DNA from: a virus
IMG/VR virus record: IMGVR_UViG_3300009514_000017
Location: 1 to 64,000 of that record
DNA length: 64,000 bases
Strand: one strand, 5' to 3'
Part shown: one piece after another, positions 1,133 to 64,000 of the stretch
How the letters are laid out: each line of letters opens with the position of its first letter
Position numbering within the stretch: position 1 is the first letter of the stretch
Translations under genes and position numbers: made by a program
The notes under the pieces: model-generated
Told to the model about the DNA's origin: nothing
Seen by the model: the letters and a program-made list of their open reading frames with translations, nothing else
Databases searched by the model: none

Positions 1133-1372
1133 ATGATAAATCTAGATTCCTTCGTAGACGAGCTCACCAAGATCTCTGGAGTCCCTGGTAAGGGGATGTT
1201 GGGCAGAGCCATCAAGAGCAGGCTCTTGATTGGTGGAGGTCTGGTTGGCACCGGAGCAGTTGGAGTCAAGGCTGGTGAGAGTGCGCTTGACGATTACAAG
1301 CGTGGCCGAGTCATGCGTAAGCAGCAAGAGATGCAGGAGCGAATGCAGCGGCAGATGGAGAGTTTCCGGTGA
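1133..1372 (+). CDS. Small F-x-D-E-L protein 1 (79 aa)
   Basis: Unrecognised small protein. It starts with MINLDSFVDELTKISG, an amphipathic helix shared with four other proteins in this window. After that come a Gly-rich hydrophobic segment (about residues 30-46, LLIGGGLVGTGAVGV) that could touch membrane, and a charged, Met/Gln/Arg-rich C-terminal helix. The ATG at 1133 is preferred over the TTG at 1094 because the shared motif then lies at the extreme N-terminus and a GAGAGAG stretch precedes it. Its TGA overlaps the GTG of the next gene (GTGA), which suggests translational coupling. Function unknown; I infer a small virion or virion-associated protein. Confidence 0.75.
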   Translation: MINLDSFVDELTKISGVPGKGMLGRAIKSRLLIGGGLVGTGAVGVKAGESALDDYKRGRVMRKQQEMQERMQRQMESFR

Positions 1373-1737
1373 CGCGCTTCGAAGCTTTCGCGGACGAGTT
1401 GAGTAAGATCTCAACCATCAGTCTGTCTGGCATCTCTCCAAACAGTGTGCCCATGCGTCCTCCAGCCATGTCTACGCCGATGTCCAGCCCAACGATGTCG
1501 ATGGCTGCTCCAAAGCCTACGATGTCAATGGCTACCCCTCGTCCTGCCTCTCCTTCCAGTAGAGGTGGCGGCATGGCATCGATGGGGAAGATGGCAACTG
1601 TAACCAGTGCTGGAGCACAACTTCTAGGTTCTCAGAAGGTAGGCCGTTTCCGGAACGTCGCGACTAGCAGGATCGTTGGAAAGCGTGGTTCTACGGTTGA
1701 CGATTTGGTTCCAAAAGTCATGGGAGCAGGTTCATGA
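1369..1737 (+). CDS. Small F-x-D-E-L protein 2, Met/Pro/Ser-rich (122 aa)
   Basis: Starts at GTG 1369 overlapping the previous stop. The N-terminus MTRFEAFADELSKIS matches the shared tag. It is followed by a low-complexity region of repeated short Met-Ser-Pro units (MSTPMSSPTMSM, about residues 27-70), then a more ordered, positively charged C-terminal third (GSQKVGRFRNVATSRIVGKR). The architecture is tag, disordered linker, basic tail. No family recognised. The linker composition and tag fit a small internal virion protein, which is inference. Confidence 0.75.
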   Translation: MTRFEAFADELSKISTISLSGISPNSVPMRPPAMSTPMSSPTMSMAAPKPTMSMATPRPASPSSRGGGMASMGKMATVTSAGAQLLGSQKVGRFRNVATSRIVGKRGSTVDDLVPKVMGAGS

Positions 1738-2213
1738 GCAGAGTACATGAGATGATCAAGAAGGCGGCTGAAAGAGGAAAGCAGAAGACTGCTGGTATGG
1801 CCAACAGCGGTGAAGAAGTAGAACAGATGATATGGAAGCGTCGCACACGAGCGCAGACTCGAGGCGAAGCCCAGGGGTTGTTCAGCACGTCTGGTGACAC
1901 GATTGAGCAGGACAGAGCAGATCTGAAGAAGCTGTTTGTCCAGACTGATGGTGCAGAGCTTGGCGCCGGTCTGATGGACCTTCCTGCCGACCTGAAGAAG
2001 GTGTCCCACGTAGCCTCTTTCCTGGACATGGTGGAGAAGAAGGCAGGGCTCACAGAAGCTCAGAGACGCTATCCGGAGTTGCAGAAAGTATCGGAGTATA
2101 CGAGTGGCGGAGCTGAGAGGACTACCAAGACTCAGCCGCCAAAGAAGCGGGATCCAAAGGCAGCATTTGGACCCGGACCCGCCACTGCTCCAATGACAGG
2201 TGGCAGGATCTAG
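1734..2213 (+). CDS. Charged helical protein with an internal tag-like motif (159 aa)
   Basis: ATG 1734 overlaps the preceding stop (ATGA). The protein is Lys/Glu/Arg-rich and predicted mostly helical. Residues 94-105 (ASFLDMVEKKAG) resemble the F-x-D-E-L-x-K-I helix found at the N-termini of neighbouring proteins, but here it is internal. The C-terminus is Pro/Gly-rich and basic (PPKKRDPKAAFGPGP). No enzymatic motif is visible. It lies directly upstream of the sigma factor in the same operon. Function unknown. Confidence 0.75.
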   Translation: MSRVHEMIKKAAERGKQKTAGMANSGEEVEQMIWKRRTRAQTRGEAQGLFSTSGDTIEQDRADLKKLFVQTDGAELGAGLMDLPADLKKVSHVASFLDMVEKKAGLTEAQRRYPELQKVSEYTSGGAERTTKTQPPKKRDPKAAFGPGPATAPMTGGRI

Positions 2214-2221
2214 AGGTTGGC

Positions 2222-3094
2222 TTGGATAGCAAGGAGCAAGCCTTCGATGAGATCATGGAGAAGCTGGCTGTTCTGAAGCCCGCTAATAGGCTGCCGTATA
2301 CTCCAGCTCTGCCTGTAATACCTAATGCACACAAACCTCTCGCCTCGATTCAAAAGCGAGAGGTAGCGATGTGGCAGGAAGCCAAGAAGTCGAACTGGGA
2401 TCCCCAATTCACCAAACCGCTGTTGCGCTCTATGGAACCTCTCATTCAGAAGAGGTCCAGCCTGTACAAGAACCGTGGCGTCGAAATCCCACATAAAGCC
2501 GTGGACTTCGAGCATAGACGCCTGGCTCTGGAAGCTATCAAGACCTACGACCCCAACAGAGGAACCAAGCTTGGAACCTGGGTGACTGGAAGATTGAAGA
2601 ACGCTTCCAAGTTCATCGGTCAGAACCAGAACACAGCAAGAATCGTCGACGCCATCTCCGCTAAGATTGGAGACTACCAGCGTTTCAAGTCTGAATTGTC
2701 AGATCAACTAGGTCGTGAACCAACAGCTCAAGAAATCCATGACAACTTGATGAAGATCGACCACGACTTCGAGAGGTTGAGGGGAACCTCTCTTCGTGAA
2801 ATTCATCGTCTGGATAAGGAGCAGCGCAAAGATCTGTTCAGCACTGGGTCTGAAATAAACATGTCGGGTGCAGCGAGAACTCTAGATTACAACAAGGAGT
2901 TGATGCACACGATCATGGATGAATTGACTCCAGAGGAAAAAAAGGTTCATGTCCTGACGATGGGACTGGAAGGAAATCCAAGATTGCCTCCAGGACAGAT
3001 AGCCCGCAGACTCCATATGGACAACTCTAAGGTGTCCAAGATTCGCACCTCCATCCTCAAGAAGATGGAGCCATACAGGGTGGATCTACTCTGA
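2222..3094 (+). CDS. Sigma-70-family RNA polymerase sigma factor (290 aa)
   Basis: Directs RNA polymerase to promoters. Region 2 is visible at about residues 62-130: a helix with AVDFEHRRLALEAIKTYDP and then NRGTKLGTWVTGRLKN, the usual YDP-x-RG...W signature. A region-3-like helix with LGREPTAQEI is at 163-172. Region 4 is at about 228-285 (LTPEEKKVHVLTMGLEG, then helix-turn-helix GQIARRLHMDNSKVSKIRTSIL). There is no region 1.1, so it is a group 3/4-like short sigma. TTG 2222 follows an AGAGGTTGG ribosome site. The N-terminus MDSKEQAFDEIMEKLAVL is a weak form of the tag in neighbouring small proteins. Its natural partner is probably the phage polymerase whose beta subunit starts at 59757 (inference). 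Confidence 0.85.
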   Translation: MDSKEQAFDEIMEKLAVLKPANRLPYTPALPVIPNAHKPLASIQKREVAMWQEAKKSNWDPQFTKPLLRSMEPLIQKRSSLYKNRGVEIPHKAVDFEHRRLALEAIKTYDPNRGTKLGTWVTGRLKNASKFIGQNQNTARIVDAISAKIGDYQRFKSELSDQLGREPTAQEIHDNLMKIDHDFERLRGTSLREIHRLDKEQRKDLFSTGSEINMSGAARTLDYNKELMHTIMDELTPEEKKVHVLTMGLEGNPRLPPGQIARRLHMDNSKVSKIRTSILKKMEPYRVDLL

Positions 3095-18739: not shown

Positions 18740-21700
18740 TGCCATCATCAGACGAAATCAGAACGTTCATCGAGGACCGACTTCAGGCTCTCGACCCGTC
18801 GATATCGTTGGAGTCGGGATCGAGAGCACAGACGGATTTCGTCGAGCCAGTCCTTACTTTTCTAGGCACTGATCCGTTCGAGACCGACATTGAGGCGTTC
18901 ATTGTAGACAGGTTCTCTCAAGAGTTTCCTGACATCTACTCAGGAGACCCCAGCGTCGTATCGGATGTGTTTGCCAAGCCACTACAGTTGATGCTCGAGC
19001 CGTTCAAGCGTGGCGTCAACATCTTGAAGCTACAGCAATCACTGGCAGACCCAGACCTGTTGACAACGGATTCAACGGAATCCTTGGCGGCGAACTTCTT
19101 CTTTGAGAGGACAGCAGGATCTAGGGCTACTGGAACAGCACGGGTCAAGTTCCCAGTGCCAAAGAACGATGAGTTTGAGGTAACGACTCGGTTCTATTCC
19201 AGTGGCGGGTTGAACTTCTATCCGACTGCACCACTCAGTATCTCTGCCGAAGAAATGATCTTCAATCGAGATGGCAGCCTCTTCTATGTTGATGTTCCTG
19301 TCCAAGCAGAGGAGGAGGGGGACGAGTACAACATAGGAGTTGATGAGCTGACGGGCGTGGACGGCGTGTCTGGAGTTGCTGCTGTCACCAACTTGAAGAA
19401 GTTCAGCAGCGGGGCAGTACGTCTAGACAACGCTGCGTTCGTAGACCAGACGAAGGAGATGTTGAACGAGAGGTCTCTGAACACCAGACGTGGTGCTCGA
19501 GCCCGTCTACTACAGGAGTTCCAGAACGACACGAGAGCAATCCAGGTCATAGGCGCAGGCGACGTTGAGATGCAGCGCGACATACTAGTTGCGACATCTC
19601 CAGGCCACTCTTGGATCACCGGGTCCGTGTCTTTGTATAACAACCTCGCTCTTGTACAGGCTCGCATCATAGACGGTGAAGAGGACGACGCACCTGCGGC
19701 TGAGGACACGCTGTTCCTCTATTTGAATTCCACTAGCTATCCATCATTAGATCAGGATGACAGGCTGGTAGAGCTAACCGTAGAGAGTCTGGTTTCTGGC
19801 CCACTTGCGGACGCAGGGACTGGGTTTCAGCAAGCCTATCTCGTCACTTGGTCAGGGGACTTCCCGACTGGTGTAACGCAGGGAACGCCTGCTCCTGGTG
19901 GGTGGGTAAACGGGCAATCGTTCGAGGGAGGATTCAGGAAGCCGGGCAACGTTCGAGTTTCATCGCTGCCAGACATTGGCGCTGTCTCCCCGGCGTTGTC
20001 CGTCCCGAATGGTGAGACTCACGTCTACGGCCACACGGATGTCTACGTGCGACCGATTTTGCAAGAGGATGCCTATATAACCCTTGATACACTGTCTGAC
20101 TCTTCACCTCTCGTGGAGCGTTCGACTCTTGATACGAATGGTGCGGGATCACCAGCGAACCGTGTAGTTGACAGCGCCAGCTTCGATTTTGCTGGAGCAG
20201 GGGTTGAAGCTGGACATCTCATCATCATCGACAGTGGTGAAACGGATGAGGGCGTCTACACGATTCAGGAGGTGACAGCAGCAGGTGCTGGTGCTCCTTA
20301 CTACCTCTACCTGACTGAAGACCTGACTGTGTCCCAGTCCGGGTTGCGCTACAAGATTCTGTCCAACATCAGGATCGATCCGTTCGACGTCACGGTGAGC
20401 AAGTTCCCGTTCGGCAGCGTCCTGGCAAACGATCTGTCTACTCAGGTCGGCTCCAACCTACTCACCCTGTCTACGAACGACATGCTCAGTTACTCGGTCG
20501 AGGTTGGTGACACGATCAAGCTGACCAGCGGCAACGATAAGGGTGAATACACGATCACGGCATTCGATTCGGTGCTTGGTGGACGGGGTCTGATTACAGA
20601 CCAGGTAATGGGTGCAACTGCTTCAGGCATCACCTATGAGGTCTTCAAGCCATTGGATTCATTGCAGAATCCTCTGGTTCGCATCAAGCAGATCTTGCTC
20701 CTAGATTCCAGCGGGCAGTCAACTGGAGTTTCTATTCCACCGGCACAACCGCTTGGAGCCAAACCTACTTCGGATTTCACTTCGGCGAAGATCAGAAAGG
20801 CCAGCACTAGAAGAACTGGATACGTTCTCCCAGACATCGAGGATTCCTATTTCACCAAGTGGGTGGAGTGGTCGGTATTAGAGACTGCCGCCGATGCTTC
20901 TGGAACCAGGTACTCAGCTGGTATTGATTCTGTGTCGCCTGTAACGACTGGGTCTGCAAGCACATATCAGGCTGTCCTCTTCCCAGACACTGGACCAACC
21001 GAGTCCGAATTCGACTTCCACGGAAACGCAGTAGGTGGTGGCGAGGCTCAAGGGAAATGCTCCTGGTTCATAGCACCAGCAGAGTCAACGGATGAGACCG
21101 TCAATTATCCACCGATAGATGAGCCGAAGCAGGGGGAGTGCCTGACGATCAAGAATGGTCCCAACGCCGGCAGCTATCTCATCAAGCAGGTGTACAAATT
21201 CAAGAGGTTGGTTGCCACAACTGACTATGAAGTTTGGGACTATTTCATTCAGATCTATGGCGAGTTCCCCGTTGATGTTTTCAAAAGCCTCATCGACTTC
21301 ATAAACGAGACTGGGGTCAAAGCATCACTGGATATTTCAGTCCCGGCGAGTGCATCCTTCGACACCGTCATCGAGGCGACATACGCAGGGGTTCCAGGCA
21401 ACGCTATCAGTTTAGCAACTGTTGCAGATGGGACTGGGGCTGGAAGTCTGACAAGATCTGGAACTGCGTTCACATTCCATTATGACTCTGGAGTGACACT
21501 GGTCTCAGAATTCGAGGATGCAGTTGATGCGTTGACTGGTGATGACGATCTAATTGCCGTCAGGACAGTTGGAACATCTCCAAGTTATGCGTTGGCGAGC
21601 GGTAGTGGTGATACGTTTGGTACAACCCTACTGACTGGAGGAACCAGTATAGTCTCGGAGCTACCACTGGATGCCTCTTCTAGTGACATAGATTGGCCAG

Positions 21701-26916: not shown

Positions 26917-29900
26917 ATGCCGTCCGTTCCTATTTCAGGTCCAACCCCAGCAACTTCAACCAGGCCAGTTGCCATCGTTGTTGCTACTCCCTTGGCTGCG
27001 ACCATTGGATCTCGGGTTCTACTCAACGGCAAGGCCAGCACGAACGCCGCTGGAACTACTCTCACGTACAAGTGGGAGTTCGTACAACCACTACCCATTG
27101 GGTCCCGGGTTGCCATCCAAGGGTTCATCGAGGTCGAAGACGATTTGTCTGTTGTAGCGTTCACTCCAGACATAGTCGGGGAGTACATTTTCAATCTGGT
27201 GGTAAACGACGGCAATTACGACAGTGATCCGTTCTATCAGCAGATCAGCGTCCGTTCAGTTGTAGTCCCACACGCCAGGGGAATAGTGCCAGATGGGAAA
27301 TTCATCTGGAGCTACTTGAGAGATGTGTGGAAGGAGGTTGAGGGTAGAGACCTGTTCGAGACGTTGTGGTCTACCCTCATCCAGATAGTAGGCTCGGAAG
27401 TTCTAAAGCTCTATCAGGCAGACTTCAACAAGAGCATCCGTGATGTTCAGAGTGAAGTGCAGAAGAGGTGGCTTTCATACGCTCCTCTCCTAGAATTGGA
27501 CACTGATAGCCTTTCGTTCTTTCTGGGGAACGTGTCGCAGGGACGCGATGGAATAACCGAGCCTTACCCGTTTCAATTGAAGGGCATCATAGTTAATGCA
27601 CAGGAGTTCATCCCTGTTGAAGGAACAGCACTACCCTCTGATGTTGGAACCGACCTGACCATCACATTCAGCCTGGATTCTGGTAACGAGGCTGACTACA
27701 GAATATTGAGCTTGAATGGAAGCAAAGATGGTTTTCTGCTTGCCATAAGCTCGTTCTCCGCCCCAACCGCAGACGAGTCCTACGCATCAAAGACGTTCTA
27801 CTTCAGTGACAGATCGACGAGTTGGGCTGCAACGACTGCGGGTCCGTACTCCGTCGGCAACTACATTAGGTTCGTTTCCGGAGACAACAAGGGCATCTAC
27901 AGAATCATGACGGTGTCTGGAACAGACATCACTGTCGATAAGCCACCACCGTTTTTGTCGGACGCAGGCAATCCATCTTCCGGTCCAGTTTATAACCCGG
28001 TGGAGTTCACACTACCTAGGGTTCAGACATCGACTGTGACCAGCTTGGCTATTCCATACATTGGTAGGGAGACAGAGTTTGACTCATTCAGGGTTGGACG
28101 ACTGTTGACGTTTGGTGGCAAGGATGTGACTGCTCCAGGTGGTACACTACGAGAGGCAGGTCAGCAGACATACGAGCCATCTAGTGCTCGAGTCGATTAT
28201 CGTCAGGGGGTAGCAGTAGCCAAGTTTACCATTCCAGACACCAACCAGGCACCCTCTGGATTGTTCGGGCAAGACTGGAGGTTGTCCAACACCCTAATAT
28301 CTACCTCTCAGAACTTTGACGAGCTGGGTGTCAACCCGGGCGACTTGTTGACGTTCAAGGTTCATCTGGTTGGATCTGATGTCGCAGTAGACCTAAAAGC
28401 TCTTGTTGTTGGGGTTCGAAAGAAGAAGCTGGCTTTCGAGTTTACTAGCTCAAATCTCACTCCAGGTTCAGCCGTCACGGAGAATGTGGTCAGAACTCTG
28501 GTAGTCGGTTTTGGAATCGATGGTTATTCACTAGCTGATGACGGGACGGATGTTTACGAGGACGATGCGCTGGACTTCAAGAACAGCTACGAGTCCATGT
28601 TATTCCAAACCTCATACCACAACGTGCTGCTAGATCAGGACAGTACGTTGACTATCAATGGAAAAGGCTACTCGTTCATTCCGTTCTCCATTCTCCGTCA
28701 TCAGACTGTAGGGGTGGACGTAGACCTGAAGTCTGTTCCGATGTTGCAGGAGTTCATCAAGCCTCCTCAGACAGTGACCAGGAGTGGTGTCACCTATCAA
28801 GTCCACAAGGGAGTCGAGTATGCTCTGGAAAGAGCCCCTAGACCATACGTCGAGAACTCCGACTTCACGATAGGTGATGAGAACGCCTACAGCGGTAAAT
28901 TCATATTCGAGTCCGGCTCCAACTACGTCGAAGGTGAGGGGATCGATTTTATAGAGTTGGGAATCAAGGCTGGTGATTCGTTCGAGATAGTTACCCCTCT
29001 GTCCTTGGCGGCGGATTACACAATCTCGGCTGTGGTGTCACAGGACAAGATCAAGCTCAGTCTCCCAGTTCCTCTGTTCCCAGTGGACCCAGTAGTAGAG
29101 GCGAACGTCGTAATCACTAGGCGAAGGTCTGGTAGATTCATGCGGTTCGTTCCCGGCTTGTTCTCAGTAGCTGGCCCAATCGCACCTAAGAGACTGTGGG
29201 CAGAGGTCTCCTTCGTAGACAATAACACCGTCATAGAAGGCAACTTCGGTCTGGCGGTTGGTCTGAAGATAGATGACTTGGAGAATGTAACCAAAGACAT
29301 TACCTATCGGCAGGCAGTGGCAGGATTGATGCGTGCCTATTCCAACTCACCGTCTATAGATAACGTAAGGACTGGTCTAGAGATCTTGCTCGGTATCCCG
29401 TTCGCTGAACATCGCGGAATCATTCGCTCCATAAACCCTGACTATAGAAGAGATTCCTATGGGAGAGTTACCAAGGGGCAGATGATAGTGGAGGATGTGG
29501 ATAGCAGTAGTGACCCTCTTGGTACTTTCCGTGTCTACGTCTACCCATTGGATGAAGAGTCAGAACTGTCTGGGCTCGAGGTCAATCCAGTCACCGATCT
29601 ACCCTATGTCGTTGGAGACATCGTTGAGGCGTTTGCAACCTTGGCAGTTGGTATTGGAATTCAGGATTACCTCACCCATCCACTGGATGACACGTTCTCT
29701 GCCGCCAAGAGATTGCAGCAGTTTCACTCGGTCAGAGTGTTAATCAACGACAACATCTACTCGTCAGGAGAGTACGACCTGGTATCGAAGTTCTTGCGCA
29801 ACATCACACCGTCGTACATCAAGTATGCACTAACCGTGATGTCAGACTTCGACGAGGATGTTCAGGCTCTTGATGCTCTCCACATGAACATCAGTGGGGA

Positions 29901-53649: not shown

Positions 53650-53685
53650 CGGACCTGATGGATGGCTCATGTCCTGGAGATCAAG

Positions 53686-54795
53686 ATGAAAACTGCCGGT
53701 GTTGTGTTCGACTTCTACGATGACCCTTCCGGAGAGATTCTGAAGACGGCTTTCCCTACTCAGGAAGCACTACCAGGTTTGATCAAGACGGCGCATATCC
53801 TCAACGATATGGAGAGGAAGGTTCTTAGAGACGAAGCTTACGCGCTCGTGTTTGAAAACGATGGAGTTACTCTTCGCAAGTTTGCCTGTATAGACCCAGG
53901 AAACACCCTGATGTCAGCTGTCTATTTTGAGAAGACGGCTTACAAGCTTCCAGAGGAGCTTAGAGAAGAGGCTCGGACCAAGATAGCTTCGAGGCTGAAG
54001 GAGTTCTTTCCGCCAGATCCACTGGACAAGCTGGCAGTTCATCTTGGGATGTCAAAGAAGCGCGACCCAAGGAAGATGAAGGACGACAACTCTGGCCAGA
54101 AAGATTGGGAGGATAGGACAAATATGGTTCAGGGGTTCGTTGAGGGAGATGATTCTCCTGGTGCAGCTCAGACCAAGACTTCTATGCCGGTAGCATACGA
54201 TGAGGTTAAGGCAGCGGTTCAGTATTTCAATGATCTGTGGCCAGAGATGTCACCGCTACAGAGGCATGAGTTCGCAGAGAAGACTGCATCTCGAGCTGAT
54301 GAGCTAGGCATCGAGGTTTCTGACAGGATGCGTAGGTATGGGTCTACATCTTACGCAGAAGATGTAGACGATCACCTGACGTCCCGCGCAGCCCATGCTC
54401 CTGTATACAAGGAGGTGTATGCCTCCTTGAAGGAGAAGAGGGCCAGTCTGGAGCCAGAGGAGTTTGCAGTTCTGCTTCAGACGGCTGACGACTCCGCAGA
54501 CCTAGTTCGGTTCTACGGCGGTGTTATTCAAGACCCGTACTTCTCGACCTTTGGATACGTTGACAAGCTGGCATCTTGGTCATGGACTGGCCCGACCGGG
54601 GACCATGTGAACTCCGAACAGTTGGATCGTCTGGCGCGCAATGCCAGGCCGCTGCTGAAGAAGCACTTCAGTGACGAAATGGTAGATGAGTTTTGTAAGA
54701 GCCCGGTCGAGATCTTCGAGTCTCTTCCAGATGACATGAAGATCATCTTGTCCAGGTTGGGGAGTGACGAGTTCACCAACTTCGGTGAGAACTGA
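53686..54795 (+). CDS. Unknown protein upstream of the portal cluster (369 aa)
   Basis: I prefer ATG 53686 because GGAG lies 8 nt upstream; ATG 53662 is in frame and would lie almost on the predicted transcription start. The protein is helical and acidic. Short K-T-A tripeptides recur (ILKTAF, LIKTAH, FEKTAY, AEKTAS), as does the pattern EF(F/A)...D.L.KLA (FFPPDPLDKLAVHLG). The middle contains a charged, probably disordered section (KKRDPRKMKDDNSGQKDWED). No family recognised. It may be a head or scaffold-like protein by position before the portal, which is inference. Confidence 0.7.
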   Translation: MKTAGVVFDFYDDPSGEILKTAFPTQEALPGLIKTAHILNDMERKVLRDEAYALVFENDGVTLRKFACIDPGNTLMSAVYFEKTAYKLPEELREEARTKIASRLKEFFPPDPLDKLAVHLGMSKKRDPRKMKDDNSGQKDWEDRTNMVQGFVEGDDSPGAAQTKTSMPVAYDEVKAAVQYFNDLWPEMSPLQRHEFAEKTASRADELGIEVSDRMRRYGSTSYAEDVDDHLTSRAAHAPVYKEVYASLKEKRASLEPEEFAVLLQTADDSADLVRFYGGVIQDPYFSTFGYVDKLASWSWTGPTGDHVNSEQLDRLARNARPLLKKHFSDEMVDEFCKSPVEIFESLPDDMKIILSRLGSDEFTNFGEN

Positions 54796-54796
54796 T

Positions 54797-55030
54797 ATGG
54801 AGACTGTATCTCTCCACTCTTTTGCAGATGAGCTTCAGCAGATCTTGGAGAAGGATGCGGGACTCAAGGATTTTTTCATCCGAAAGGTTGCACCTGAGTC
54901 CAGCAAGAGGTTAGCTAGAACAAAAGTCGTATCAAACATCACTGGAGCTTTTCCTAGATCAGTCAAGCCGGTTAAACCGATAGACATGGGTGATACGTGG
55001 TTGGCAAAAGCTGGACTTCGACCTGCGTAG
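54797..55030 (+). CDS. Small F-x-D-E-L protein 3 (77 aa)
   Basis: ATG 54797 is one base after the previous stop, with GGTGAG upstream. The N-terminus METVSLHSFADELQQILEKDAG carries the shared tag. The remainder is basic (KRLARTKVVSNITGAFPRSVKPVKP) without recognisable domain. With the other four tag proteins it forms a set of small, otherwise unrelated products around the sigma and portal genes. Confidence 0.7.
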   Translation: METVSLHSFADELQQILEKDAGLKDFFIRKVAPESSKRLARTKVVSNITGAFPRSVKPVKPIDMGDTWLAKAGLRPA

Positions 55031-55037
55031 GTAGTCT

Positions 55038-55970
55038 ATGAACCAGCCAGAGATCGAATTCTACAAGCGCTTGACTGAATTCGTTCCGACTGCTCCTACT
55101 GAAGGCAGTCCTGTAGAGGAACGTTTCAAGGCTGTTCCAGATTACAAGATCCCAGTTAGCCCTAAGAACCTCTTCACTCATCAGGAAATCCACCCCATCG
55201 TTCTAGACCTATCTCTACTAAAGGCTTTCGGTGAGGAGTGGTACTACTGGGAAGTTCCGACTCTGTGGAAGTCCATCCACGACGAGTTCAAGTCCAAGGT
55301 GTCGGAGTCGAACAGAGCCAAGATCAACGCTGTAAGAACTGCAAGAATCACCACCCTACCGTGGGATAGCTGGCACGTTTTCGAGAATGTGGTACTAGCA
55401 CTAGATGGATTTGTTCCACGGTGGGACATCCTACAGAAAGTAGATCTTGAGTCACTGTTCGTAGGAGTGGACATCCTGGAGCAGATCAGACCTGAGGACT
55501 ATTCGGAAGATGTCCGCAACTACATAGCTGCTGTCTTCTTGGATGATGATGTCTTCTTCACCCCTCCACCACTAGAGTTTTCACAGGCAGAAGTCTCGCA
55601 GCCCTATTACCTTTGCAAGGATTGTGGAAATGAGGAGTGGGCGCTACATCACGATGGCATCTGCTCCGTGTGCTCTGGTAGATACGATCCAGAGAACGGT
55701 TTGTCGATGCGGCCTTCCCAAGAAGCCATAGACAAGAAGCTCGGGCAGAACACCGTGTTACGATACAAGTTCGACCCTGGGCCTGAGCAGAGAGTCTGGG
55801 ATCTAGTGGCCAGGTCCAAGAATGAGCAGTCGATTTTGAAGGTGGCTGGTCCAGCAGAGATAGGTGTGTCAAAGCTGCTGGATGCTAGAGACCTCATGAA
55901 CATCAGGCGCAGACAGCTCAAGAACCAGCTGACCGCTCTCAAGTCTTGGCTGAACTCGAGGTCTTCATGA
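55038..55970 (+). CDS. Zinc-ribbon protein next to the portal (310 aa)
   Basis: Mixed helical protein, residues 1-190, with many aromatic residues (EEWYYWEVPTLWKSIHDEF). CKDCG ... CSVCSG (about residues 197-217) is a four-cysteine zinc ribbon. A basic helical end follows (DLMNIRRRQLKNQLTALKSW). No family recognised. Its stop overlaps the next ATG (ATGA). Position two genes upstream of the portal suggests a head or packaging role. Confidence 0.7.
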   Translation: MNQPEIEFYKRLTEFVPTAPTEGSPVEERFKAVPDYKIPVSPKNLFTHQEIHPIVLDLSLLKAFGEEWYYWEVPTLWKSIHDEFKSKVSESNRAKINAVRTARITTLPWDSWHVFENVVLALDGFVPRWDILQKVDLESLFVGVDILEQIRPEDYSEDVRNYIAAVFLDDDVFFTPPPLEFSQAEVSQPYYLCKDCGNEEWALHHDGICSVCSGRYDPENGLSMRPSQEAIDKKLGQNTVLRYKFDPGPEQRVWDLVARSKNEQSILKVAGPAEIGVSKLLDARDLMNIRRRQLKNQLTALKSWLNSRSS

Positions 55971-56503
55971 TTGATTATTCAGCCTTCACTGATGAGCTGG
56001 AGAAGATTGGTGGAGTAGGAACCTTTCTTCAGAAACAGATCAAAAACGTTGGCAACACGATTAATGACTTTGCTAATCCCATAAAATCCATGAAGGCTGG
56101 ATGGGAGTCTGGTGCTGCCGGTAGATCGTTTGGTGGATGGGGCGGTAAGCTACTGACAGACAAAAATAAGCCGTCGTTCTGGCGTCATCTACCTGTAGGA
56201 CCCAAGGCTCAGATAACAGGCTTTACTGCACTTGAAGCTCCAGGCGCCCTCGCCAAAGAAGACCCTAGTGGCGAGGGGCGATCTCGTCTGCGTCGTGTAT
56301 CTGGAACCCTTGGTGGGACCGGAGGTTTTTTGGTCGGTGGTAGACATGGACTCCTTGGCTCTCTGGTTGGTGGAGCCATTGGCCAGAAGATGTTGAGTGG
56401 GTCTGTAGGATTAGGGGAGAGCACTGTAGAAGCTGTCAAGCAACTCAAACGTCAGAGAAAGTTTAATGCATTGAATACAACGCAGACCCCCGTGGGGCCG
56501 TAA
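55967..56503 (+). CDS. F-x-D-E-L protein 4, Gly-rich (178 aa)
   Basis: ATG 55967 overlaps the previous stop. It begins MIDYSAFTDELEKIGGVG, the clearest copy of the shared tag. After a helical stretch, the middle and end are rich in Gly with small hydrophobics (GTLGGTGGFLVGGRHGLLGSLVGGAIG), possibly a membrane-active or packing segment, followed by a basic helix. Function unknown. It directly precedes and is coupled to the portal gene, so a virion location is plausible. Confidence 0.72.
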   Translation: MIDYSAFTDELEKIGGVGTFLQKQIKNVGNTINDFANPIKSMKAGWESGAAGRSFGGWGGKLLTDKNKPSFWRHLPVGPKAQITGFTALEAPGALAKEDPSGEGRSRLRRVSGTLGGTGGFLVGGRHGLLGSLVGGAIGQKMLSGSVGLGESTVEAVKQLKRQRKFNALNTTQTPVGP

Positions 56504-58509
56504 TGTCGTCAGATCTAGACTTCTACAACTCCCTGTCTGGCGTATCCAGATTCTCTGGTGTTCGTGGTCGGCTCTCGCAAGGTGGGTCGTTTCCAGCTCG
56601 CTATCCATCCCCATTCTTCGATCTCGGTCATACTTGGCTACCACACTCGATTGGCAAGCTGCATCAGTGGTGCCGCTACTATTACCTAGTCAATCCACTG
56701 ATCAATGCCGTCATTCACAAGATGGCGGAATATCCAATCACTGAGATTGTCGTCAACGAGGTAAACAAGACCACCAAGGAAAAGTGGGAGCACATTCTAG
56801 GACAGCATCTTCGTATTCGTGCGTTCCAGGTAGAAGCTGGCCTCGACTACTTCACTTACGGGATCTGCATTATCACGATGCACTTCCCATTCGAGAAGTA
56901 TCTCGCTTGCACGAACTGCAAGTTCGAGGACAAGGCCAGCAACCTCAAGTACAAGTGGCGCAACCTGAACTACATCCTTCGTTGTCCCAAGTGTGACCAC
57001 GAGGGGCCAACCAAGGTTCGAGACCAGTACCTGAAGGACTTCCGTCGAATCAGGTTGATGAGATGGAATCCAGAGTACGTCTACATAGAGCAGGGGTTTG
57101 CTGGCGCGGAGCCCATCTACACTTTTATGGTTCCGAAGGGTCTCAAAAACGAGATCATGATGGGCAAGACCCGCGTTCTCAACACGGTTCCAGATATCTA
57201 CATTGAAGCGTTGAAGCGCAACAGGAATATAGCGTTCGCTCCAGAGAACATGTTCGTGATGAAGCGGCCAATCATCTCTCAGAGAGAGACGGGTTGGGGT
57301 ATGCCTCTCATCCTTCCTGTTCTGAAGGACGCTTTCTACCTTCAGATCTTGCGCAAGTCTCAGGAAGCTATAGCTTCTGAGCATATCGTTCCACTTCGTG
57401 TTCTGTTCCCTCAGGCAGGAAGCGGAACGAGCGATCCATATACCTCAATCCCAATTGAGTCTTGGAGGTCCCGTATAGAGCGTGAGATCACCAAGTGGAA
57501 GTACGACCCAAACTACATTCCTGTTCTTCCTCTACCTATTGGGTCTCAGTCCATTGGTGGAGATCAGAAAGCTTTGAATCTGCACCAGGAGATCAGCCTC
57601 TGGTCTGAGCAGATCGTTGCAGGAATGGGAGTGCCGAGAGAGTTCGTGTTCGGCGGCCTTACATTCTCTGGCTCCAACGTGTCGATGAGGATGTTGGAGA
57701 ACGCTTTCATCAACTACCGTATCGACCAAGACAACCTCTTGAATGAGTTCATCATCAGGAGAGTTGCAGACTACATGGGTTGGCCATCGGTGCGCGTATC
57801 TATGCGCAAGTTCAAGATGGCAGACGATCTACAGAGGATGAGCTTCCAGTTCCAGCTCAACCAGGCAATGAAGATCTCAGACGAGTCTCTGTTGAAGGAA
57901 TGCGACCACGATCCAGTAGTTGAGAAGGAGCGCAAGGAGCGTGAGGTTGGAGCTCAACTCGAGTACCAGCGCAAGATGCAGCTATCACAGGCTGAGACTC
58001 AGGGTCAGATGTTGCTTGTTCAGTCTCGCTATCAGGCTGCTGCCCAAAGCATGTTGGCTCCGGCTATGCCTGTGCAGCCTGGAGCTCAACAGGGTGCAGC
58101 ACAGCTCGGTGGCCAGCAGGGTGAGATGGTTTCAGGAGACCAACTTGGAATTCCTGGAGTTCCTGGTGACGTTTCTGTCTCTCCAGAGAATGCTCAACAG
58201 CAGCCAGTTGAAGGAGTTCCGACTGAAGCTCAGAGTCCTCTCAGCATGAACACACAGGGTGCTGGGATAGACATTAGGTACGTTGCTAAGAGGGTACTGG
58301 CTCAAATCCAGAAGCTGTATGCCCAAGATCCACAGCAGGCGAACATGAAGCTTGAGGAGATCAGGGCATCCAATCCACAGCTATATAGTCTTCTCATCCA
58401 GATGGCTAACAGTAGGGTTGGCTCTCAAACCGATCCACTAAATCCGGTTCAGTCTCCGCAGCCACAGGTGAAGCCACCTCGTAGCCCCAAGTCTCCAGCG
58501 GCTGCGTGA
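56503..58509 (+). CDS. Portal protein with embedded zinc ribbon (668 aa)
   Basis: The dodecameric portal is the DNA gate of the capsid. The mid-region shows the portal pattern: LWSEQIVAGMGVPREFVFGG, then SNVSMRMLENAFINYRIDQD and LNEFIIRRVADYMGW. C136/C139 and C161/C164 form a zinc ribbon inserted in the N-terminal third, which I do not know from well-studied portals. The last 170 residues are Gln/Pro/Ala-rich with a helix. ATG 56503 overlaps the preceding TAA. Its stop lies 2 bases from the convergent stop of the next gene, with no terminator between. Confidence 0.82.
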   Translation: MSSDLDFYNSLSGVSRFSGVRGRLSQGGSFPARYPSPFFDLGHTWLPHSIGKLHQWCRYYYLVNPLINAVIHKMAEYPITEIVVNEVNKTTKEKWEHILGQHLRIRAFQVEAGLDYFTYGICIITMHFPFEKYLACTNCKFEDKASNLKYKWRNLNYILRCPKCDHEGPTKVRDQYLKDFRRIRLMRWNPEYVYIEQGFAGAEPIYTFMVPKGLKNEIMMGKTRVLNTVPDIYIEALKRNRNIAFAPENMFVMKRPIISQRETGWGMPLILPVLKDAFYLQILRKSQEAIASEHIVPLRVLFPQAGSGTSDPYTSIPIESWRSRIEREITKWKYDPNYIPVLPLPIGSQSIGGDQKALNLHQEISLWSEQIVAGMGVPREFVFGGLTFSGSNVSMRMLENAFINYRIDQDNLLNEFIIRRVADYMGWPSVRVSMRKFKMADDLQRMSFQFQLNQAMKISDESLLKECDHDPVVEKERKEREVGAQLEYQRKMQLSQAETQGQMLLVQSRYQAAAQSMLAPAMPVQPGAQQGAAQLGGQQGEMVSGDQLGIPGVPGDVSVSPENAQQQPVEGVPTEAQSPLSMNTQGAGIDIRYVAKRVLAQIQKLYAQDPQQANMKLEEIRASNPQLYSLLIQMANSRVGSQTDPLNPVQSPQPQVKPPRSPKSPAAA

Positions 58510-59681: not shown

Positions 59682-59756
59682 CAGCATCGTCCAGGCTCGA
59701 AAACCCAAGGCGCTGGGTAGAGCCTCTCTTCACCGAGCGCGTCTTAGGTGAGGTAC

Positions 59757-62700
59757 ATGGCACGCATATCCCCGACTGAGGTCTTTGATGGCCTCAAGAA
59801 AAACACAGTCGAGTCCATCAAGTCCTACTTCCCGTTTGAAGAGGGAGGTAAGAGGCTTGAGGTCGAAGACGTTTGGGTCGATGACAAACTGGACGTCAAC
59901 GATATTCAATCACAACAGAAGGCCAAGCTCGATGACAAGACCTGGGGTGTAAAGGTCAAAGCCAAGATGAAGCTCACCGATATCAAGACCGGCAAGGTCT
60001 TGGATCGAGCTACGTCCAGTGTGGCCACTCTGCCGAAGATGACGAATCGCTTCGGCTACATCGTTGGTGGAAACGAGTATCAGGTAGACAATCTCTTCAG
60101 ATTGAAGAGCGGTGTCTACACCCGAATCCAGAACAACGGCGAGTTGGAGTCTGAATTCAACTTGGCCAAGAGCCCTGTGGGTGGTCGCGGGTTCTCGGTC
60201 CACTTCGATCCAGAACGCAAGAAATTCTCGCTTCTCTACAAGACAGCCAAGATTCCACTCCTCCCAATCCTCAAGAGCATGGGGATGGCAGACGATGACA
60301 TCAAGAAGAACTGGGGCAAGGAGATCTACGAGGCGAACTCCCCCAAGTCTCAGAAGGCTTATGACCAAGCACTGTTGGATTTCCAGACCAAGACCAGTGG
60401 AGATGCCACGTTCAAAGGGTCGAAAGATCCTAAGGAGTACATCAAGGAGTTCTTTCATCAGTCTGAGTTGCGACCAGACACGACCTCCATCACTCTAGGA
60501 AAGCCATTCGATAGAGTGAGCCACGAGGTTCTATCGATTGCAGCCAACAAGGTTCTCGGTGTGTCTCGAGGAACCAACGAGCCTGACGACCGTGACAGTC
60601 TGGCGTTCAAGGAAATCACCTCCACCGAGGACTTCATTCCAGAGAAGATCGAGAGGTCTGCTAGGGCTATCCGGGGCAAGCTTCGTCAGACTATGGGGAG
60701 GAAAGACAAGATCAAGGAGATTATCCCTTCCGGTGAAAGAGGTCTGTTTGGTCAGCCAGTACATGACTTCTTTACCAAGGGCGGGTCTGTTGCTGAGTTG
60801 TCTGACCAGACCAACCCATTGCAGATCTTGTCTGCACATCGCAAGACTACCTTGATGTCAGAGCAGTTCGGCGGCATGAAGTCCGAACACTCTCTCACCC
60901 CAGAGATGAAGGTGGTCAACCCTAGCCACATAGGGTTCCTTGACGTGATGAAGACTCCCGAAAGCAGTCGCTCGGGTATCACCGTCAATCTATCGCTACA
61001 GGCACAGAAGAGAGGTAAGGAGCTCGAGGCTCCTGTCTTTGATCTGAAGTCAAAGAAGTTGAAGTACGTCTCAGCCCACGAGTTTCATGGACGCAATTCT
61101 GTATTGCCAGACCAAGTCAAATGGGTTGATGGCAAGCCGGTGCCTATAGCCAGCCGTGTCAAGATGAAGGTCGTTGGCGGGGCGATAGAAGAGCGTCCGT
61201 GGACCGACGCAGATTCTGTAATGCCAACTGCCAAGGGCATGTTTGACTTCACCTCGAACATGATTCCTTTCTTGCCGTCAGACCAGGGCAACCGTGTGTC
61301 GATGGCAGATAAGCAGATGGAGCAGGCTATTAGCCTGAAGCATCGAGAAGCTCCACTCGTTCAGACCAAGACCGAGAAGGAAAAGACGTTCGACAAGGTG
61401 TTGGGAAACTTTGCCTCTCAGAGATCACCCGTTGCCGGGAAAGTAACCGCAGTTAGAGGTAATCAGGTTACGGTCAAGGACGCGAAGAACAAGAGTCATA
61501 ATGTCCACTTGTACGATCACTTCCCTACCAATGACCCAAAGGGAATGTTCCATTCCGAATCGTCTGTGAAGGTCGGAGACCATGTCTCAAAAGGCGATAC
61601 TCTGGCGGATACCAACTTCACAAAGGGTGGAAACCTAGCACTTGGAACCAACCTCCGAGTTGGTTACGTGCCATTCAAGGGCTACAACTTCGAAGACGGT
61701 GTCGTCGTATCTGAGACGGCATCTAAGAAGTTGACCTCCGAACATCTGTACAAAGAGTCACTATCTGTGTCCCCAAACGATGGGGATCGTATTGACAAGA
61801 ATAGATTTGTTGCGGTGGCCAAGCGCAAGATCGCTCAGATGCAGCCAGGAGAGCTGGACGCCATTGGTAGTGATGGTGTGGTCCGCGTTGGTTCACATGT
61901 TCAACCAGGTCAGGTGTTGGTTACTGCGGTTGGTAAAAGCAACCTGGACAAGAGAGATCATGCTCTAGGTTCATTCGGTCGTAGAGCCATGTCATTGGAG
62001 AAGGACAAGTCTCTGGTTTGGAACCACTCCAGTCCTGGAAAGGTGGTTCGTGTAGTCAAGAGCCCTAATGGTAAAGAGATAAAGGTTCACGTCAAGACTG
62101 AGGAACCTTTGGTCGTCGGCGATAAGGTGGCCGGACGCCACGGTAACAAGGGCATCGTCACTAAGATTCTTCCCGATGACGAGATGCCATTTACTGTTGA
62201 TTCTAAGACCAAGGAGAAGAGGCCCATACACGTCCTTCTCAACCCGACCGGCGTGCCTTGCTACGACGATAAGACTGAATTCTTGACCGACACTGGATGG
62301 GTTCAAGCTCCCAAGATCCATGAAGAGCATCGGTTCGCTACGATCAACCCGAAAACTCTAACTCTTGAATTCCAAGATCCAGAGGAGGTTTACCACATAC
62401 CTTACACGGGTAAGATGTACAGGATTCAGAACCAGCAGCTTGACCTACTAGTTACTCCTCACCACAAGCAGTTCACTGCCAAGAGAGGGAACCAGAAGCT
62501 GTATGGAGCGTTGGATTTAGATGACCAGGAGCTTCCGTCTCTGTTTTCATTGGATGAAGCACAGGAAATCATAGGCCAACCAAGGCGGTATCTAAAGGCT
62601 GCTAAGTGGAAAGGTGATAGCGCGGCTTTCTACTATATAGAGCCTGGAACTTACGCTGGAGTAGGGCCTAAGCCTACTCATGGAATGAACATCCCAGCAT

Positions 62701-64000
62701 CTATCTGGGCTGAGTTCATGGGATGGTTCTTGTCTGAAGGAAGCACGTACTTCAACAAGGCTAACTACAGCTACGTTACAGAGATTTCCCAAGACAAGAA
62801 TGTAAATCCAGAAAACTATGATCGCATTCGTACGGTCATGGAATTCTTTGGGCTTACGTTGGAGGAGACGGACTCTGGTATTCGCGTTAAGCACAAGGGC
62901 TTATTTGAACGACTGGCTTTGTTGGGTAAGGCTCGAGAGAAGTATATTCCTAGAGAGATCTTGGACATGGAGCCACGGCATTTAAGGCTATTCCTAGATG
63001 CTGCTGTACGAGGTGATGGATCTGAGACTTGGGATGCAGAGACGGGTCACTACGGTAACAAGAAGTATTGGACTGCTTCTAAAAGGTTGGCTGATGGGAT
63101 TCAGGAAGTAGCTGCCAAGCTTGGAATTGCAGCCAATATAAAGCGTGAGAGTCGTAGAGGTGATGACGCTTGCTACTACATTTCTTTGAGTGGGAGTCGT
63201 TTAGCGCCATGGGTAAATTGGTCATCAACGACTAAGTCTAACCAGGTTGAAGAGTGGGAGGACTACGACGGAGTAGTTCACTGCGCTACAGTTCCGAACG
63301 GAACTCTCTTGGTTCGTAGGAATGGAAAGGCAGTCTTCAGCGGGAATACAAGAATCAACGTTGGTCAGGTTCTAGAGACAGCAGCAGGGAAGATTGCTGA
63401 GAAGACTGGTAAGCCTTTCATAGTCGACAACTTTGGTGACCCCAAGTCCAACAATCGCAAGATGGTAGCGGATGCTCTTAAGGCACACGGGCTCACTGAT
63501 GAAGAAGATGTCTACGACCCGAGCAATGTGAAGAAGCCAATCGGTTCCGTCCTGGTTGGTCCACAGCACATACTCAAGTTGCAGCACCAGGTTGAAAAGA
63601 AGCTTACCTCCCGTGGTGGTTCAACTACTGCTGGTGGAGCTGGACTCAAGTTCGACAGTGACAGGCAGCCACAGAAGGGTGGGGAGCACGGGTCTCAGGG
63701 ATTTGGTCAGCTGGAACTCTACTCGTTGCTTGCACATGGGGCCAAGCACAACATCCGTGAGTTTGCCACGTACAAGTCCGACGAACAGAATGAGCAGTTC
63801 TGGGCGCAACTACAGTCCGGTAGAGAGCCGCCACCTCCAAAGGTGCCATTCGCTTACAACAAGTTTGAAGCTCTCCTAAAGGGGTTGGGTGTCAATGTAG
63901 AGAAGCATGGAACTGAGATTCAACTTCTACCATCAACAGACAGGCAGACTATTGCTGCTGCTGGTGGAGCGTCTGGGGAATTGAAGAAAGCCAACTTGAC
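59757..64000 (+). CDS. rpoB: DNA-directed RNA polymerase beta subunit with intein (partial, 3' end outside window)
   Basis: ATG 59757 follows TTAGGTGAGG; the frame is open to the window end (more than 1414 codons). Bacterial beta landmarks appear in order: GGNEYQVDNLFRLKSGVYTR, FLPSDQGNRVSMADKQME, LALGTNLRVGYVPFKGYNFED and VGDKVAGRHGNKG (the two catalytic-site lysines). After these come LNPTGVP/TRINVGQVLET split by an intein, and GGEHGSQGFGQLELYSLLAHGA with KSDEQ. The chain is one polypeptide, unlike the split subunits of phiKZ-type phages. Without the intein it would be somewhat shorter than the E. coli beta. Beta-prime should lie downstream. Confidence 0.93.
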   Translation, partial: MARISPTEVFDGLKKNTVESIKSYFPFEEGGKRLEVEDVWVDDKLDVNDIQSQQKAKLDDKTWGVKVKAKMKLTDIKTGKVLDRATSSVATLPKMTNRFGYIVGGNEYQVDNLFRLKSGVYTRIQNNGELESEFNLAKSPVGGRGFSVHFDPERKKFSLLYKTAKIPLLPILKSMGMADDDIKKNWGKEIYEANSPKSQKAYDQALLDFQTKTSGDATFKGSKDPKEYIKEFFHQSELRPDTTSITLGKPFDRVSHEVLSIAANKVLGVSRGTNEPDDRDSLAFKEITSTEDFIPEKIERSARAIRGKLRQTMGRKDKIKEIIPSGERGLFGQPVHDFFTKGGSVAELSDQTNPLQILSAHRKTTLMSEQFGGMKSEHSLTPEMKVVNPSHIGFLDVMKTPESSRSGITVNLSLQAQKRGKELEAPVFDLKSKKLKYVSAHEFHGRNSVLPDQVKWVDGKPVPIASRVKMKVVGGAIEERPWTDADSVMPTAKGMFDFTSNMIPFLPSDQGNRVSMADKQMEQAISLKHREAPLVQTKTEKEKTFDKVLGNFASQRSPVAGKVTAVRGNQVTVKDAKNKSHNVHLYDHFPTNDPKGMFHSESSVKVGDHVSKGDTLADTNFTKGGNLALGTNLRVGYVPFKGYNFEDGVVVSETASKKLTSEHLYKESLSVSPNDGDRIDKNRFVAVAKRKIAQMQPGELDAIGSDGVVRVGSHVQPGQVLVTAVGKSNLDKRDHALGSFGRRAMSLEKDKSLVWNHSSPGKVVRVVKSPNGKEIKVHVKTEEPLVVGDKVAGRHGNKGIVTKILPDDEMPFTVDSKTKEKRPIHVLLNPTGVPCYDDKTEFLTDTGWVQAPKIHEEHRFATINPKTLTLEFQDPEEVYHIPYTGKMYRIQNQQLDLLVTPHHKQFTAKRGNQKLYGALDLDDQELPSLFSLDEAQEIIGQPRRYLKAAKWKGDSAAFYYIEPGTYAGVGPKPTHGMNIPASIWAEFMGWFLSEGSTYFNKANYSYVTEISQDKNVNPENYDRIRTVMEFFGLTLEETDSGIRVKHKGLFERLALLGKAREKYIPREILDMEPRHLRLFLDAAVRGDGSETWDAETGHYGNKKYWTASKRLADGIQEVAAKLGIAANIKRESRRGDDACYYISLSGSRLAPWVNWSSTTKSNQVEEWEDYDGVVHCATVPNGTLLVRRNGKAVFSGNTRINVGQVLETAAGKIAEKTGKPFIVDNFGDPKSNNRKMVADALKAHGLTDEEDVYDPSNVKKPIGSVLVGPQHILKLQHQVEKKLTSRGGSTTAGGAGLKFDSDRQPQKGGEHGSQGFGQLELYSLLAHGAKHNIREFATYKSDEQNEQFWAQLQSGREPPPPKVPFAYNKFEALLKGLGVNVEKHGTEIQLLPSTDRQTIAAAGGASGELKKANL
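62259..63347 (+). other. LAGLIDADG intein in the beta subunit (363 aa)
   Basis: Residues 835-1197 of the precursor. Block A starts with Cys1 (CYDDKTEFLTDTGW), block B is LLVTPHHKQFT, block F includes VPNGTLLVRRNGKAVF, and the end is SGN followed by Thr+1. The penultimate residue is Gly rather than the usual His. Two LAGLIDADG-like helices (WAEFMGWFLSEGS and LRLFLDAAVRGDGS) mark a homing endonuclease. Flanks rejoin as LNPTGVP-TRINVGQVLE, identical in layout to intact bacterial beta. Confidence 0.93.

Follow-up and report, generated by a model that had tools for sequence, protein, structure and literature searches.

Phage proteins that are carried in the head and injected into the host are normally detected by virion proteomics only. 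In phage T4, the internal proteins IPI-III and Alt bear a short N-terminal capsid-targeting sequence (CTS) that is removed by gp21; the first ten residues of IPIII are enough for packaging, with residues 4 and 7 serving targeting and residues 8 and 10 serving processing, and Alt is processed at its C terminus too (PMC9026906). In phage P1, a 30-residue N-terminal segment of DarB suffices to carry a reporter into the head, and the N termini of the Dar proteins have no consensus (PMC9024508). Phages of the SPN3US/phiKZ type have a protease, gp245, that cleaves after A-x-E and also cleaves itself (PMC5694885, PMC10052503). Finally, in virions of Salmonella phage Arash, mass spectrometry placed the RNA polymerase gp206 at the top of the protein list and also recovered the head cluster, the sigma factor gp10 (24 unique peptides) and the helicase gp217 (38 unique peptides); many other entries of that list have few peptides and may be carry-over (PMC10585845).

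Here we describe a recurrent peptide, F-x-D-E-L-x-K-I-(A/G/S) (example peptide, MIDYSAFTDELEKIGGVGTF), which on sequence evidence is a lineage marker of uncultured phages related to Arash. We consider it likely that this tag is a short, movable capsid-targeting propeptide, clipped by a gp21-type protease at K-x-(A/S/G). As in the class to which the T4 CTS belongs, a short terminal element is common to otherwise unrelated proteins of one phage, and a head protease of predicted assemblin fold is present. By analogy, the phenylalanine (position 0) would correspond to T4's targeting residues, which come first, and K-I-A (positions 6 to 8) to its processing residues, which come last. Unlike the T4 CTS, the tag has another sequence and a predicted K-x-A/S/G site in place of the T4 gp21 motif, it is found in 79 carrier families of our sample (at most about ten per genome) and also in internal and C-terminal copies, and the lineage that carries it has its own single-chain multisubunit RNA polymerase.

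The other systems differ in other respects. In contrast to the P1 Dar proteins, the tag is a strong consensus common to dozens of families. The likeness to phages of the SPN3US/phiKZ type lies in head or ejection proteins and a virion RNA polymerase, protease-matured there and presumably here; most propeptides there, however, measure 111-254 residues, cleavage takes place at another motif, and the RNA polymerase has five subunits. Arash (OQ632216) shares with the tagged lineage a homologous portal, terminase, capsid, head protease, RNA polymerase, sigma factor and helicase, and K-x-A is enriched in its head cluster too; it has no F-x-D-E-L tag, however, and two separate genes encode its polymerase.

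A shared peptide opens unrelated proteins in the window

The window (the whole stretch of DNA analyzed, 64,000 nt) covers positions 1 to 64,000 of the 75,790-bp record IMGVR_UViG_3300009514_000017. Translated in frame, four of its proteins open with N-terminal F-x-D-E-L-x-(K/Q)-I (Table 1), and the bodies of the tagged proteins are unrelated. When the window's proteome was shuffled, N-terminal F-x-(D/N)-E-L, observed four times, appeared 0.013 times per shuffle (maximum 1 in 2000 shuffles), and N-terminal F-x-D-E-L-x-K-I, observed three times, was not seen after shuffling.

An earlier note on this DNA had described a shared N-terminal helix on proteins starting at 1133, 1369, 54797 and 55967, with further copies at 2222 and within 1734-2213. 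All of these peptides lie in frame where it had placed them, and the similarity is real. It is not strictly N-terminal, however, because C-terminal copies occur in the rest of the record, whose last 11.8 kb, outside the window, hold four further copies, and because internal copies exist. One C-terminally tagged protein of the record is a DNA ligase with matches to PF01068, PF14743 and PF13298. The internal copy SFLDMVEKKAG is too degenerate for counting with the position-specific scoring matrix (PSSM); homologues of the protein that contains it lie upstream of the sigma factor in two relatives (G003 and G006). The gene at 1133-1372 is the first of two tagged genes just 5′ of the sigma factor, a layout found again in several relatives.

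The record is a fragment in which the capsid and protease genes are absent. A reading of window positions 60-64 kb as gene-poor was dropped, as one large polymerase open reading frame extends past the window end.

Table 1. Tag copies and associated features (window positions, or positions in the full record where marked)
Feature	Position	Strand	Details
N-terminal tag MINLDSFVDELTKIS	1133..1177	+	ATG start; 79-aa protein 1133-1372; from translation; PSSM 28.8
N-terminal tag MTRFEAFADELSKIS	1369..1413	+	GTG start; 122-aa protein 1369-1737; PSSM 26.0
Degenerate internal copy SFLDMVEKKAG	2016..2048	+	Protein 1734-2213; preceded by KKVSHVA
Degenerate tag AFDEIMEKLAV	2240..2272	+	N-terminal extension of sigma factor 2222-3094 (TTG start)
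K-x-A-rich 377-aa late-cluster protein	53662..54795	+	Family unknown; 8 K-x-A where about 1.0 is expected, and 1 A-x-K as reversed control
N-terminal tag METVSLHSFADELQQI / METVSLHSFADELQQILEKDAG	54797..54862	+	ATG start; K-D-A-G site a few residues downstream
N-terminal tag MIDYSAFTDELEKIG	55967..56011	+	ATG start; protein 55967-56503, directly 5′ of portal gene; PSSM 30.7
Portal protein	56503..58509	+	phrog_16240, E 6.6e-4; homologue of Arash portal gp204, E 2e-79
Single-chain beta-beta′ RNA polymerase	59748..64000, to 68636 of record (L002 1749-10637)	+	2962 aa including inteins; untagged
C-terminal tag AKTAGVDYTAFTNELYEIVGRGYR	Gene 72695-73135 of record		Before stop
C-terminal tag KKSAHLLNAAKLLGFVDELQKEI	Gene 73171-74553 of record		Before stop; ATP-dependent DNA ligase
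N-terminal tag MISSSFVDELEKIA	75015 of record		
N-terminal MIPISFVDE(L)	75762-75790 of record		Truncated by record end

N-terminal copies exceed chance in related phages

A scan of IMG/VR for ATG-N15 followed by F-x-D-E-L-x-K-I returned 74 stretches, many of them internal or in unrelated genes, and the reversed motif I-K-x-L-E-D-x-F returned 57 as a control; the raw total of matches therefore proves little by itself. What carries weight is instead that copies cluster within genomes and stand at gene starts. Among the 28 records picked from these matches, a single record may hold as many as nine copies, almost invariably with all of them on one strand, and there are no control matches.

We read ten genomes whole, the window's own and nine motif-selected records, with genes called by a dicodon model. 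At a position-specific score of at least 12, they contain 66 N-terminal copies versus 0-1 copies in reversed or shuffled controls, none of these N-terminal. Selection on the motif was then removed by fetching 160 loci through capsid or portal alignment. At a score of at least 14 these gave 118 copies, compared with none in reversed and none in shuffled sequence, in a set where some loci share contigs with the motif-selected genomes and only identical proteins were removed against metagenome redundancy. Ninety-one of these copies are N-terminal (in 46,750 positions) and 27 internal (in 542,180 positions), the latter a class that wrong starts in our home-made gene calls may have inflated. Of the 95 loci that reach 15 kb or more, 50 contain at least one copy, and a relaxed form of the tag is N-terminal in 117 proteins versus 1 in reversed and 4 in shuffled controls. 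The earlier note had named, as the first ground for giving up the tag, a frequency at N termini of related genomes no higher than chance; the excess over controls in each of these comparisons excludes chance.

Among cultivated phages, the tblastn matches to capsid and portal were Arash and three Vibrio phages, followed by phages at a greater distance, with no tagged phage found; F-x-D-E-L is absent from Arash and from the 50 kb read of Vibrio phage D69. Searching bacterial and archaeal genomes by capsid returned four MAG contigs from mixed phyla, which name no host. A search of IMG/VR for close relatives of the 55967 protein found none. In literature of incomplete coverage we found no earlier description of the tag or of the fused polymerase in uncultured phages, and our searches found no virion proteome of a tag-carrying phage.

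Tagged proteins span 79 families and keep to the late-gene strand

The 184 tagged proteins fall into 79 sequence families (phmmer). An alignment of 78 representatives has a mean column identity of 4%, and its consensus consists of little beyond AFxDELxKIA. Few carriers match Pfam, and those that do include an SNF2-type helicase, DNA ligase, MazG with a P-loop, a papain-like amidase (C92) and DUF5661. Two placements are conserved: one directly 5′ of the sigma factor, seen in the genomes G000, G003, G006, G009, G012 and G028, and the other just 5′ of the portal gene. The most widespread tagged family adjoins the portal gene and is represented in the window by the 55967 protein. Across its 34-sequence alignment, the sole invariant residue is the tag's K13, with F7 nearly invariant; in the model of the 55967 protein, a helix begins at residue 4 and pLDDT is below 50 at residues 14-16, just past K13-I-G.

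Codon usage bears on the level at which the tag is maintained. The codons are mixed (GAC/GAT 33/17; seven different codons at the L/M/F position; ATC/ATT/ATA 29/17/4), and so selection acts on the protein. Gene starts hold most copies, as would be expected if the similarity reflected an RNA- or translation-level element or a recent duplication of gene starts, but synonymous codons would not then be mixed, nor would internal and C-terminal copies exist, and we regard such an origin as extremely improbable.

Where the tag would take its carriers is a separate matter. Several tagged proteins are Gly-rich and hydrophobic, and phages that form a nucleus are known to import proteins selectively (PMC11087766); both points count in favor of a signal for import into a different compartment, for example a phage nucleus, or of a role in anchoring proteins to a membrane of the infected cell. 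The window's DNA polymerase, primase, DnaB-like helicase and UvsX are untagged, however, though a nucleus would need to import them, and tagged genes keep to the late-gene strand (73 of 75, versus 1113 of 1779 genes overall), which makes this destination very unlikely.

Two groups of carriers have features of their own. One tagged family (G003 157989-158828, G009 19925-21022, G026 29695-30540 and L269 16066-16956) contains a conserved HELGH, a motif by which it may be called zincin-like and a candidate injected metalloprotease; the two members scanned (G003 and G026) gave no Pfam match. In an SNF2-type helicase (G017 132230-135073), an extra region behind the helicase domains holds an internal tag between K-L-A and K-I-S.

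A K-x-A/S/G site sits between the tag and the protein body

A capsid-targeting propeptide of the kind we favor would be clipped at K-x-A/S/G, and the residue that follows the tag's K-I is small (A, G or S) in 87 of 89 copies. We scored the flanks of 186 distinct tag contexts (150 N-terminal, 34 internal and 2 C-terminal). For N-terminal tags, K-x-A/S/G lies downstream in 139 of 150, and K-x-A/S lies upstream in 5. Internal copies have a site on the downstream side in 34 of 34 and on the upstream side in 25 of 34 (background 12%, p 2e-16); the difference in upstream sites between internal and N-terminal copies is pronounced (p 1e-18). Both scored C-terminal copies, from a class with few clear members, have the site upstream and neither has it downstream, nor do they have a K-I-A of their own. 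The site thus changes sides with the position of the tag, such that it sits between the tag and the protein body.

K-x-A is also concentrated around the head genes. Up to 15 kb from the capsid gene it is enriched 2.18-fold, falling to 1.04 beyond 50 kb; the reversed order A-x-K is flat. In Arash, K-x-A occurs 44 times in the head cluster versus 11.7 expected, and 64 versus 72 times in all other proteins checked. The capsid's own K-(I/V/L)-A discriminates little, because its region is conserved throughout.

Individual proteins can be dense in such sites. The K-x-A-dense head proteins of Arash are gp220, gp222-gp225 and gp242. A late-cluster protein of unknown family at 69790-71808 of the record has 11 K-(I/L/T/V/S/Q/E/M)-A sites where about 1.6 are expected, and likely counterparts of similar size are present in most relatives.

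Relatives encode a predicted gp21-type head protease

Relatives of the window encode a head maturation protease 5′ of the capsid gene (phrog_18299, E 1.3e-7). An AF2 model built from 31 sequences has a mean pLDDT of 75.6. Foldseek against the PDB gave no significant match; VIA-align later aligned the catalytic domain (residues 49-232) with T4 gp21 (5jbl_C; Z 10.8, rmsd 3.0, 134 residues aligned), with the herpesvirus assemblins of VZV, HSV and HCMV as the next-best structural matches. On this model, the relatives' protease has an assemblin fold of gp21 type. H108, H109 and S165 are invariant among the 31 sequences and are presumably catalytic.

The protease itself carries K-x-A pairs on both flanks of its catalytic domain, in segments where pLDDT is below 50. 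Of the residues in these pairs, K271 is invariant throughout the same 31 sequences, and K29, A31 and A273 are almost so. Of 50 members of the protease family, most have K-x-A near residue 30, and 46 have K-x-A/S, mostly as AKLAS, directly past the catalytic domain. K29-T-A and K271-T-A resemble self-cleavage sites and are candidates for that role. One member (G028 117254-119377; L178 17254-19377) has an inorganic-pyrophosphatase-like insert (PF18823, E 2e-35) at the junction of catalytic domain and tail.

The gene order at capsid loci is protease, scaffold-like family 1 and major capsid protein. The middle family, about 270 aa long and called scaffold-like from its position between the protease and capsid genes, has D-(L/I)-E-K-x-A near its start and a tag-like helix, GRVMAH(A/S)-Y-x-Q-E-L-x-x-I, in its interior. 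In G001, a second capsid-like protein (102572-103657; E 2.5e-44 to the capsid profile) is encoded at a distance from the main capsid gene; it may be a vertex protein comparable to T4 gp24 or an artefact of gene calling.

These observations can be set against a simpler role for the tag, as a helix that docks permanently onto portal, capsid or tail, with the K-x-A that follows being merely the helix end. The most widespread tagged family is indeed encoded beside the portal gene, and a helix is what the earlier note had seen. Permanent docking would leave unexplained why the K-x-A site switches sides at C-terminal tags and appears on both sides of most internal ones, and also why K-x-A flanks the protease domain and is enriched in the head cluster only. 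We therefore think permanent docking unlikely, and return to a propeptide that is removed.

A proposed import route into the phage head

In the mechanism we propose, the tag's amphipathic helix would dock its carrier into the prohead core during assembly, perhaps by copying the helix A-Y-x-Q-E-L-x-x-I of the scaffold-like core protein. The gp21-type maturation protease would next cut at K-x-A/S/G or immediately beyond it, which would strip off the docking helix and release the cargo inside the head, and the cargo would leave with the DNA at ejection to act early in infection of the next host. The putative cargo comprises DNA ligase, SNF2-type helicase, the sigma factor, zincin-like HELGH proteins and many small Gly-rich proteins. 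Docking, cleavage, presence in the virion and ejection are thus steps that we infer for tagged proteins. The earlier note had compared the helix to the T4 CTS and taken it for a virion- or compartment-targeting tag; the late and head-gene setting, the gp21-like protease of the relatives and the predicted site that ends the tag favor a virion-targeting role like that of the CTS. The sequence is not that of the T4 CTS.

More tentatively, and with somewhat less than even confidence, we suggest that the tag constitutes a modular import code: a single excisable peptide, derived from a docking helix of the scaffold and bounded by protease sites, that may stand at the N terminus, at the C terminus or in mid-protein, so that cargo would be readable from sequence and exchangeable between genomes.

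If the tag can be read in this manner, injected proteins would be predictable directly in hundreds of uncultured phages. It would point to the ligase, helicase, sigma factor and zincin-like proteins, together with numerous small uncharacterized proteins, as probable members of the injected set, and K-x-A would be a candidate cleavage rule for the gp21-type protease. The tag would also represent a further, independent capsid-targeting system besides that of T4, with which to compare how heads select their cargo.

Sigma factor and RNA polymerase in comparison with Arash

An Arash RNA polymerase homologue is encoded in 10 of the 10 genomes, and an Arash-like portal, terminase and capsid in nearly all of them. 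The orthologue of the Arash helicase gp217 is tagged in relatives, whereas Arash itself is without F-x-D-E-L.

The sigma factor of the window (2222-3094) matches phrog_351 (E 1.8e-12). Across the lineage, eight of nine sigma factors have a tag-like sequence and hydrophobic-x-K-x-A in their N-terminal extensions, the ninth lying near a contig end. The G016 sigma factor begins FIEFADELDKEAAA, in which FADELDKEAAA is a nearly perfect tag. Arash gp10 has no N-terminal extension and starts directly at the conserved part. From these two observations we read the sigma copy as probably a worn version of the tag. The suggestion that the sigma factor is packaged, which the earlier note had made conditional on its copy being real, gains support from the eight extensions and from the presence of the sigma factor in Arash virions (PMC10585845).

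Because Arash packages its sigma factor and polymerase with no F-x-D-E-L, the tag cannot be the sole route into the head, and it is likely to be one among several. The fused polymerase open reading frame of the window's record also shows signs of inteins and homing endonucleases (Intein_splicing, LAGLIDADG_3 and Hom_end), including one that falls in the catalytic NADFDGD region.
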